From positions 1 through 64,000 of the forward strand of contig CACLNT010000006.1 of the NCBI GenBank assembly GCA_902608385.1: a stretch of 64,000 bases of DNA. The letters run 5' to 3'. Positions 13,704-15,469 of the stretch are shown one piece after another; the stretch's first letter is position 1, and every line of letters begins with the position of its first letter. Made by a program: the position numbers and the translations under genes. The notes under the pieces were generated by a model. It did no database searches, was not told the origin of the DNA, and was given only the letters and a program-made list of their open reading frames with translations. Source of the stretch: an uncultured Pelagibacteraceae bacterium (GTDB taxonomy: Bacteria > Pseudomonadota > Alphaproteobacteria > Pelagibacterales > Pelagibacteraceae).

Positions 13704-13979
13704 TTAGAGCAAAAATCCTTCATTTTTTAGGAGTTTTTTTTTAGTTTTTGTTCCTCCAGGACTAGAAAAACCACCCAAACTGCCATCAGATCTAATGACC
13801 CTATGGCAGGGTACTTTTGGTGCATATGGGTTCTTAGCGCAGGCATTAGCTACTGCACGCGCTGATTTAGGCCTATTTATAGCTATAGCGACCTGTTTAT
13901 AGGTCTTTACCTTGCCTTTAGGTATAGTTTTAAGATATTTCCAGACTTTTATTTGAAATTTAGTGCCTTTAAGTATCAT
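13704..13979 (-). CDS. MGMT-type methylated-DNA-cysteine methyltransferase domain protein
   Basis: About 91 residues, consisting only of the DNA-binding C-terminal domain of Ogt/Ada. FQIKVWKYLKTIPKGKVKTY is the helix-turn-helix entry, followed by the arginine-finger region RPKSARAVANACAKNP and the acceptor PCHRV with Cys58. The active cysteine is present, so it is not an ATL protein (those have Trp). It repairs O6-alkylguanine by direct transfer. The start ATG at 13979 was chosen because upstream codons lie inside a terminator and structured RNA. It lacks the usual N-terminal domain, as do other short family members. Confidence 0.85.
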   Translation of the reverse strand: MILKGTKFQIKVWKYLKTIPKGKVKTYKQVAIAINRPKSARAVANACAKNPYAPKVPCHRVIRSDGSLGGFSSPGGTKTKKKLLKNEGFLL

Positions 13980-13986
13980 TATAGTG

Positions 13987-14031
13987 AAAAAAAACCCTGT
14001 TTCCTTGCACTTTTTACGGTGCAAAGAACAG
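13987..14031 (-). terminator. Rho-independent terminator of the structured RNA
   Basis: Plus-strand arms 13997-14010 and 14019-14031 pair as 5 bp plus 8 bp with one bulged base and one G-U pair in the RNA, with an 8-nt loop. A run of eight A on the plus strand (13987-13994) gives U8 in minus-strand RNA. The polarity fits only minus-strand transcription. The U tract ends 7 bp before the ATG of the MGMT gene. Confidence 0.8.
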
Positions 14032-14178
14032 TAGTTTTGGCACGTCGTTGTATGCGCTACCGCCATGCCTATCGCTCCACATGTTTAGCGCTGCTTTGTA
14101 GAGCTTTCTGCCCCCTGGGCTTGAACCTCTCGGCTTTTCCCCAATCGGCCAGTTAAGGGTTGCCCCTTAATTCACTTT
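13987..14178 (-). ncRNA. Unidentified structured small RNA
   Basis: The stretch 14040-14170 is clearly richer in G+C than everything around it, has no coding logic, and folds well as minus-strand RNA. Elements 5' to 3' are: a 7-bp hairpin at 14153-14170 with a GCAA tetraloop; a UUGGG/CCCAG stem (14139-14144 with 14115-14119) enclosing a 4-bp hairpin with a GAGA loop at 14124-14135; an H-type pseudoknot with stem 1 at 14098-14104/14074-14080 (7 bp) and stem 2 at 14086-14091/14054-14059 (6 bp); and a 13-bp terminator. It has no tmRNA tag, no tRNA T-arm, and no RNase P or SRP signatures. About 190 nt. Identity is unknown; the 5' end is estimated. Confidence 0.65.
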
Positions 14179-14182
14179 CTAC

Positions 14183-14216
14183 ATTATCAAAGTGATTTGG
14201 TTGTATGTATCACTTT
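14183..14216 (-). promoter_or_regulatory. Candidate promoter with inverted repeat upstream of the structured RNA
   Basis: On the minus strand GATAAT (14183-14188) could be a -10 box, with GTGATA 18 bp upstream (14207-14212) as a weak -35. A perfect 8-bp inverted repeat AAAGTGAT/ATCACTTT (14189-14196 and 14209-14216, 12-bp loop) covers the spacer and -35, as an operator would. A similar half-site TTCACTTT lies at 14171-14178. Transcription from here would begin near 14175, just before the first hairpin. Confidence 0.4.
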
Positions 14217-14269
14217 ATTGTTGTATTTATGGACTTTTTCACAGCCTTGAATTATGGGGAAAACTTAAA

Positions 14270-14434
14270 TTAAAATATTAAGAGGCTAATAAGTATAACA
14301 AATCCAATTGCTATAATTCCAAAAATAGATGCTATAATTTTGTTTTTTGTAGTTTCTTTAAATTTTTCCCAATAGTTCATAATTAGAAATGTTGTTATAA
14401 CTACAATTAATCCAATCAGCACATATTTTGGCAT
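14270..14434 (-). CDS. Small hydrophobic membrane protein, 54 residues
   Basis: An ATG-to-TAA frame beginning MPKYVLIGLIVVITTFLIM, with a short charged loop YWEKFKETTKNK and a second hydrophobic helix IIASIFGIIAIGFVILISLL. This is a two-span hairpin membrane protein. No Shine-Dalgarno is obvious. It is divergent from the recombinase gene, with starts 82 bp apart. Its size and topology resemble small toxins, holins or membrane anchors, but nothing specific can be recognised. It could still be a chance frame. Confidence 0.4.
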   Translation of the reverse strand: MPKYVLIGLIVVITTFLIMNYWEKFKETTKNKIIASIFGIIAIGFVILISLLIF

Positions 14435-14455
14435 TTATAACTTTAACTTATTTGC

Positions 14456-14484
14456 TTGACTTTAAAAATGAGTTATATTATAAC
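14456..14484 (+). promoter_or_regulatory. Promoter of the tyrosine recombinase gene
   Basis: TTGACT at 14456-14461, a 17-bp spacer, and TATAAC at 14479-14484 is one of the best sigma-70 matches in the window. Predicted transcription start is about 14490-14492, inside the palindrome that follows at once. Confidence 0.6.
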
Positions 14485-14509
14485 TTCCGATAATTAATGG
14501 TTATCGGAA
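14485..14509. repeat. Perfect 9-bp inverted repeat with 7-bp spacer at the recombinase promoter
   Basis: TTCCGATAA (14485-14493) and TTATCGGAA (14501-14509) flank TTAATGG. The pairing continues beyond one mismatch on the outside. It abuts the -10 box, covers the predicted transcription start, and ends 6 bp before the ATG. Arms of about 9-13 bp around a 6-8 bp core are the layout of tyrosine-recombinase crossover sites. It could equally be an autorepressor operator or a 5' hairpin that blocks translation. Confidence 0.75.
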
Positions 14510-14515
14510 ATTTAT

Positions 14516-15469
14516 ATGAATGACTTAGTAACTGAGGTAAAAAACCTTGAAATAGAAACTTTAAAAAACTTAAAGAATTCTAAAGCTGCAAATACTTTAA
14601 GAGCTTATCAAGCAGATTTTAAGGATTTTTCAACATTCTGCATAAAAAATGGACTATCGAATATGCCTACAGAACCTAAAATACTATCTATTTATCTTAC
14701 TCATTTATCAAAATCGTCAAAATTTAGCACATTAAGGAGAAGAATAGCCTCAATAAGCGTGATTCATAAGATGAAAGGGCATTATTTAGATACAAAGCAC
14801 CCAATAATAATGGAAAATTTACATGGTATTAAAAGAACAAAAGGAACAAATCAAAAAGCCAAAAAACCTATATTAATCAATGATTTAAAATTAATTATTA
14901 ATGCAATAAATCAAGAAAAAATAAAAGCAAAACATTTTTTGGAAGACAATGTCAAAGAAACAAAGAGGATTAGAGATAGAGCTTTGATATTATTAGGTTT
15001 TTCAGGAGGATTTAGAAGATCAGAATTAGTTAATTTAGAGTATGAAGATATCGAATTTGTAAAGGAAGGGGTAAAAATATTCATTAAAAGATCAAAAACT
15101 GATCAATCTGGTGAAGGCTCAATTAAAGCTATCCCCTACTTTGATAATAAGGAATTTTGTCCTGTAAAAGCTTTGGATCATTACATGAAATCAAAGTTTG
15201 TCAGTACTTTCAGTGGTCGAATATTTAATATTTCAGATAAGTCTGTTGCCTTAATAATTAAAAAATATGCATCATTAGCAGGATTAGATGCAAATAAATA
15301 TGCAGGACATAGTTTAAGATCGGGATTTGCAACATCAGCGGCAGAAGCTGGAGCAGAAGAAAGAAATATTATGACTATGACAGGACATAAAACCACTCAA
15401 ATGGTAAGAAGATATATACAAGAAGCAAATTTATTTAAAAACAATGCGTTAAATAAAATTAAAATATAA
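14516..15469 (+). CDS. Tyrosine recombinase / phage-type integrase
   Basis: 317 residues. An N-terminal SAM-like core-binding domain (about 10-110, with NTLRAYQADFKDFSTFC) is followed by the catalytic domain. Catalytic residues are visible: Arg167/168 in GFRRSE, Lys194 in RSKTDQ, His265-x-x-Arg268 in GHSLRSGFAT, His291 in GHKTT, and the nucleophile Tyr300 in VRRYI. All are present, so it should be active. It lacks the gene companions of XerC or XerD and is the only mobility gene here. It lies between an unusual RNA-bearing spacer and cell-surface glycosyltransferase genes, so it likely belongs to a small integrated element. Confidence 0.9.
   Translation: MNDLVTEVKNLEIETLKNLKNSKAANTLRAYQADFKDFSTFCIKNGLSNMPTEPKILSIYLTHLSKSSKFSTLRRRIASISVIHKMKGHYLDTKHPIIMENLHGIKRTKGTNQKAKKPILINDLKLIINAINQEKIKAKHFLEDNVKETKRIRDRALILLGFSGGFRRSELVNLEYEDIEFVKEGVKIFIKRSKTDQSGEGSIKAIPYFDNKEFCPVKALDHYMKSKFVSTFSGRIFNISDKSVALIIKKYASLAGLDANKYAGHSLRSGFATSAAEAGAEERNIMTMTGHKTTQMVRRYIQEANLFKNNALNKIKI

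Follow-up and report, generated by a model that had tools for sequence, protein, structure and literature searches.

The window, a 64,000-nucleotide stretch of DNA from an uncultured Pelagibacteraceae bacterium, carries on its minus strand a structured RNA gene flanked by an ogt/atl-like gene and a divergent gene for an Xer-like tyrosine recombinase. The features of the locus are as follows.

13704-13979, minus strand: ogt/atl-like gene, the downstream neighbour, outside the RNA unit (PF01035, 111.3 bits)
13987-14036, minus strand: terminator-like hairpin with U8 (13987-13994); -17.3 kcal/mol, z -3.74, 1 of 200 shuffles as low
14037-14177, minus strand: core of the IMES-2 RNA, four hairpins (cmscan and pair counts)
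14153-14170, minus strand: hairpin 1 with GNRA (GCAA) loop; 7 pairs, 100% of cells paired, 3 pairs changing on both sides
14108-14152, minus strand: hairpin 2 with internal loop GAAA/CAAG and GAGA tetraloop (pair counts)
14074-14104, minus strand: hairpin 3, its loop containing GCGCUA (14086-14091); 8 of 8 counted pairs changing on both sides
14039-14069, minus strand: hairpin 4, its loop containing UAGCGC (14054-14059); 7 of 9 pairs changing on both sides
14086-14091 with 14054-14059, minus strand: kissing-loop pairing; 96.0% of cells paired, 2 of 6 pairs changing on both sides
14183-14189, minus strand: putative -10-like element TGATAAT, in columns conserved among related loci
14208-14224, minus strand: operator-like element ACAACAATAAAGTGATA, conserved upstream at about -47 to -31
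14245-14263, minus strand: far-upstream element, resembling paired DnaA boxes in other genera, degenerate in the window
14516-15469, plus strand: gene for Xer-like tyrosine recombinase, the divergent neighbour, outside the RNA unit (PF00589)

The whole window was scanned against Rfam 15 with cmscan. Five matches were obtained, four tRNAs and, at 14037-14177 on the minus strand, IMES-2 (RF02035), which scored 156.4 bits against a gathering cut-off of 54.7 (E value 4.9e-41) and covered model positions 1-141 of 141. At a permissive threshold, the only addition in the region 13900-14300 was one sub-threshold match to pemK. The 6S RNA model (RF00013) found no match in the window or, at the permissive threshold, in this region. 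A preliminary description, made from the sequence, had noted that hallmarks of tmRNA, RNase P RNA, SRP RNA and tRNA were missing, and neither models nor gene finders for these RNAs matched the locus. It had also left open whether the RNA was of the marine IMES type or represented a new class. The former proved correct, and the full-length match to a known family means that the RNA is not a new class. With a score above the cut-off over the full model, the same consensus hairpins with compensatory changes, and a SAR11 host and distribution, no tested feature sets the RNA of the window apart from the family. Judged from its sequence, the feature is a plain member of the already catalogued orphan RNA IMES-2 of SAR11. 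High transcript abundance in sea water is a trait ascribed to the IMES-2 family. IMES-1 (RF02034) shares the name series and is a distinct family; its model matched 0 of 297 Pelagibacteraceae genomes, and the control genomes were likewise without a match, so that this count does not establish its absence. One paper considers that IMES-2 in a squid assembly may be contamination from the environment, and the term 'IMES' is missing from the main text of a Red Sea metatranscriptome paper.

The minus strand of 13980-14180 folds with a predicted energy of -76.6 kcal/mol, compared to a mean of -52.35 for 200 dinucleotide shuffles, none of which was as low (z -5.46). We aligned 46 homologues from all 12 genera with a match, leaving out most near-copies (alignment A1), and tallied the pairs of the Rfam stems and of the loop-loop pairing, 45 in total including six kissing pairs. 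Among 2051 cells, 93.0% were paired (shuffled mean 76.9%), and pairing dropped to 31.1-41.9% when partners were slid by 1-3 columns. Changes on both sides were seen in 31 of the 45 pairs, and in 353 cells against a shuffled mean of 103.3; such counts are inflated by relatedness, a concern that the sliding control answers in part, and the structure was taken from the family model. Every helix of IMES-2 displayed compensatory changes, which support the strand and the stems assigned in the preliminary description.

The individual hairpins differ in how strictly they are kept. The seven-pair hairpin with GCAA loop and the GAGA-loop hairpin within a longer stem, both pointed out earlier, are present. 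The loop of hairpin 1, read by eye in the alignment, belongs to the GNRA type in all 46 rows (GCAA, GCGA, GUGA or GUAA). Hairpin 2 shows double-sided changes in 9 of the 11 outer-stem pairs and in 2 of the 4 inner-stem pairs; one of its pairs fails in 14 of the 46 rows, and the rows that have diverged most do not keep the GAGA loop. Paired cells were 88.0% and 80.4% in hairpin 3, with mispairing at the inner end in 18 of 46 rows and in outer pairs in 4-8 rows. One position in hairpin 4 (A1 columns 125/144) is G.A in 35 rows and A.G in 11, with a standard pair in 0 of 46.

Concerning the pseudoknot, the preliminary description had proposed an H-type fold. Its two paired segments are present and backed by covariation. 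On the other hand, the partner of loop 3 sits in the loop of hairpin 4: because 14061-14069 pairs with 14039-14047 and closes this fourth hairpin, the pseudoknot joins two hairpin loops and is a kissing contact rather than H-type. In the 46 rows, the two kissing pairs that change on both sides do so in 14 and 16 cells, two pairs are invariant, one has one-sided variation and fails to pair in 9 rows, and one deviates only by 2 unpaired rows. Eight variants of the loop pair were found: GCGCUA/UAGCGC in 21 rows, GUACUA/UAGUAC in 7, GCACUU/UAGUGC in 6, GUGCUA/UAGCAC in 4, GCGCUU/UAGCGC in 3, UCGCUG/UAGCGC and GUUCUA/UAGAAC in 2 each, and GAACUA/UAGUUC in 1. The core of loop 3 lacks self-complementarity in 15 of the 46 rows, which disfavours an obligatory homodimer through this loop. 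The kissing pairing is unmarked in the Rfam consensus of IMES-2. When kissing bases are taken as paired, unpaired stretches conserved in 75% or more of the rows reach 4 nt at most.

The terminator with U8 that had been recognized on the same strand is present, and a hairpin with a T-run also follows related IMES-2 sequences as judged by eye; a simple consensus scan of the minus strand of 13900-14600 misses it, in contrast to the fold statistics given above, and likewise lists no sigma-70 promoter. The promoter-like sites that were found in 13900-14600 number two, both on the plus strand, against a shuffled mean of 3.2. A TGATAWT-like element is found at the -10 place of related IMES-2 loci, the copy in the window being unlisted by the promoter scan. 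Further upstream, we examined 54 regions, the 75 loci collected holding 55 different RNAs of which 54 have 150 upstream bases. The best match to the consensus TCAACTATAAAGTGATA for the operator-like element, searched from -60 to -26, fell at -44 to -47 in 54 of 54 regions with 0-6 mismatches, and a strict pattern for the element was matched in 39; the upstream motifs had been picked after inspection of the sequences. DnaA-box-like 9-mers (TTATCCACA) occur at roughly -90 to -65 in several neighbourhoods and are degenerate in the genus of the window. The best 9-mers had 0, 1 and 2 mismatches to TTATCCACA in 8, 27 and 19 of the 54 regions, respectively, some of them lying elsewhere or on the opposite strand. 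In the complete genome G043, none of the 25 windows densest in DnaA boxes revealed a cluster near the GC-skew minimum. A scan of the same genome for both upstream motifs gave training-set strength only at the IMES-2 locus, itself a training member, so that no shared regulon was seen, and no regulator was found.

We then consider the genes around the RNA. Among the 75 loci, 43 place IMES-2 between the divergent integrase and ogt, 23 place it at genes that we take from their sequences to be mnmA and/or surf1, and the 9 most diverged loci place it elsewhere; in five of these nine, the neighbours are presumably selO-like, nuclease-like and SRAP-like genes. Further loci from other genera lay at mnmA and surf1 in 12 of 12 cases. 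The presence of at least three gene neighbourhoods, which share one upstream block, indicates a stand-alone gene and not a leader of ogt. That IMES-2 is a leader, acting as an attenuator, of ogt, the ATG of which is 7 nt past the U tract, is suggested by ogt lying downstream in the window and in 42 of 74 other loci. This reading is nonetheless very improbable: the downstream gene is not constant, 32 of the 75 loci having other neighbours, the leader reading is contradicted outside the genus, and 18 of 20 examined genomes without IMES-2 keep both integrase and ogt. A small membrane-protein-like frame (approximately 54-72 aa) is often found between the integrase and IMES-2 or ogt, for example upstream in loci L015 and L027 and, by eye, on the minus strand at approximately 14280-14440 of the window; it persists where IMES-2 is missing, as in locus L052.

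A ligand-binding RNA or a ribozyme acting in trans would account for the compact fold with its GNRA loop, kissing loops and invariant A-rich joints. Riboswitches of the purine type likewise have adjacent hairpins linked by loop-loop pairing. IMES-2 differs from these in that inspection by eye showed no helix that consistently closes off hairpins 3 and 4 and no downstream gene is constant, making this reading improbable.

With strict filters, IMES-2 was found in 204 of 297 sampled Pelagibacteraceae genomes, with one match each, and in 12 of 14 genera, the other two having no match. In a sample of the order, 140 of 297 genomes had a match, all in the same family and in 4 of 11 genera; the two samples overlap, and the order sample holds few other families. 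Among family genomes with completeness of 90% or more and contamination of 5% or less, 72 of 127 carry IMES-2, so the RNA is not an essential part of a cellular machine. The family genomes without a match number 93, of which 20 were listed, all in the genus of the window. In 18 of these 20, the integrase and ogt lie approximately 260-1,250 bases apart; both genes are missing in the other two. The 18 loci were searched with R1, a wider model with automatic structure and 32 pairs that does not include the kissing pairs, and no IMES-2 was detected, the sole match having 8.9 bits and an E value of 2.4. In 14 of the 18, another frame on the ogt strand reaches or overlaps the start of the ogt match, and in the other four a small frame, in frame with ogt, ends a few bases before it as judged by eye. 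Hidden copies in genomes without a match were considered and rejected: R1, with the best 10 candidates per genome scored and very diverged copies able to escape, matched 153 of the 297 order genomes at E values up to 10, the 13 beyond the 140 having E values of at least 0.0077.

Both upstream elements were also missing from 18 of the 18 loci, the best scores being 6.9 and 6.1 against training minima of 18.2 and 17.3; two loci with IMES-2 scored 26.8-26.9 and 17.5-24.6. As the elements are missing wherever the RNA is missing in these loci, the RNA and the upstream block are absent together. On a tree of the integrase with 52 rows (18 without IMES-2), approximately 8 presence changes were counted against a shuffled mean of 15.2. 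Since support is weak and recombination is possible, we retain only the statement that IMES-2 is patchy within the genus of the window. Carriage by viruses was rejected: an 18-base pattern occurred in 12 viral contigs that reached at most 15.0 bits with R1, consistent with chance, and no match at E 0.01 was obtained when 13987-14264 was compared by blastn with 50,697 phage records. Other hosts were rejected likewise, the same pattern occurring at at least 118 genome-contig loci, of which the 29 titled outside Pelagibacteraceae/Pelagibacterales reached at most 11.8 bits and were attributed to chance.

We looked for proteins and RNAs with which IMES-2 might work. Hfq, ProQ and CsrA were each matched in 0 of 30 Pelagibacteraceae genomes (15 with and 15 without IMES-2), compared to 5, 1 and 3 of 14 control genomes, respectively. 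The alphaproteobacterial control, Caulobacter, had a match for Hfq only, so that lacking ProQ and CsrA does not set SAR11 apart. For 6S RNA, none of 297 family genomes and 4 of the 14 controls, Caulobacter included, had a match; this search applied strict filters, scored at most 8 candidates per genome and can overlook diverged copies. In a 2009 survey of Pelagibacter ubique HTCC1062, tmRNA, SRP RNA and RNase P RNA are named, and '6S RNA' appears nowhere in the text (PMC2704228).

We propose, with a probability of about one half, that IMES-2 is a trans-acting, protein-bound RNA with a transcription unit of its own. The gene would be transcribed from its own regulated promoter, a step against which the sigma-70 consensus scan stands in finding no promoter at the proposed place, and would yield an RNA of approximately 190 nt acting in trans. 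The kissing loops would lock hairpins 3 and 4 together as a rigid unit, and the RNA would work as a ribonucleoprotein that holds a protein or a large machine such as RNA polymerase or the ribosome, rather than through a long free antisense seed. We infer a ribonucleoprotein because almost all conserved bases are paired, kissing or in short runs, because the partners of small RNAs and 6S RNA were not found, and because the gene stands alone and is patchy. Against this counts that loop 3 would expose a longer conserved stretch if the kissing contact opens. In its mode of work, IMES-2 would be akin to protein-binding regulators, of which 6S RNA is an example, without belonging to the 6S RNA family: the likeness is by analogy, both being stand-alone structured RNAs that are perhaps protein-bound, and the long bulged duplex of 6S RNA is missing in IMES-2.

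The main rival explanation is a base-pairing small RNA that needs no known chaperone, its loops and joints pairing with mRNAs while the remaining fold gives protection. Pairing small RNAs are able to act without Hfq. A terminator-like end of its own and a conserved upstream block are found in many such RNAs, and loops 3 and 4 present 6-nt motifs able to pair in trans. However, the two loop motifs covary as expected for an internal contact, conserved unpaired runs do not exceed 4 nt, and neither Hfq nor ProQ had a match in any of the 30 genomes. We therefore regard this explanation as possible, though rather unlikely. A pairing of the AGAAAG joint with the 3' tail of 16S rRNA (CTTTCT in G043) was rejected, as roughly a quarter of the 46 rows have A in place of the final G.

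Returning to the protein-bound RNA, a more specific form is doubtful at present: a SAR11-specific regulatory ribonucleoprotein core in which the kissing-loop RNA and its control block hold a not-yet-named protein or RNA polymerase and are gained and lost as one cassette. Such a particle would be set in bacteria that seemingly lack Hfq, ProQ, CsrA and 6S RNA, and IMES-2 is an orphan RNA of cells that are among the most abundant on Earth. Three results are possibly new: that compensatory changes back the kissing contact, that the RNA and its upstream block are lacking together, and that no partner proteins were found. Knowing the complete genomes with the RNA (among them G043, G009 and G022) and without it, the block that travels with it and the usual partner proteins that gave no match makes its function testable in isolates and in RNA data from sea water. 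Should the classic partners of small RNAs indeed be missing, any protein recovered with IMES-2 would probably represent new biology.

The chromosomal position of the locus raised the possibility that IMES-2 is a DNA element of the replication terminus, next to a dif-like site. The copy in G043 is indeed 2.2 kb from the GC-skew maximum, itself a broad plateau of approximately 60 kb. The other neighbourhoods in other genera largely refute this reading, the copy in genome G009 lies at 303 kb, far from both skew sign changes in a coarse sample, and the stems covary as RNA, leaving it with hardly any credibility. The recombinase itself was most similar among solved chains to 4a8e (XerC-like, E value 5.1e-11) and 1a0p (XerD, 2.1e-8), and no second recombinase of this kind was found in G043 by phmmer (E 0.1, ORFs longer than 60 aa). 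In that genome its gene is 0.9 kb from the skew maximum, which is broad and determined on a sequence with 5,000 N. In G026, a complete genome that lacks IMES-2, the skew was sampled in 20 windows and is plus in the one at 975-995 kb and minus in that at 1000-1020 kb; the recombinase lies at 997.9-998.8 kb. A 2009 paper describes P. ubique as lacking a dif/Xer system (PMC2731167). The sequences examined here point to a likely single-recombinase dif system at the terminus. A dif-like palindrome is located at 14485-14509 (region to 14515), directly before the start of the recombinase gene, and its core GATAATTWATKGTTATC was present in 20 of 20 compared integrase loci of the genus.
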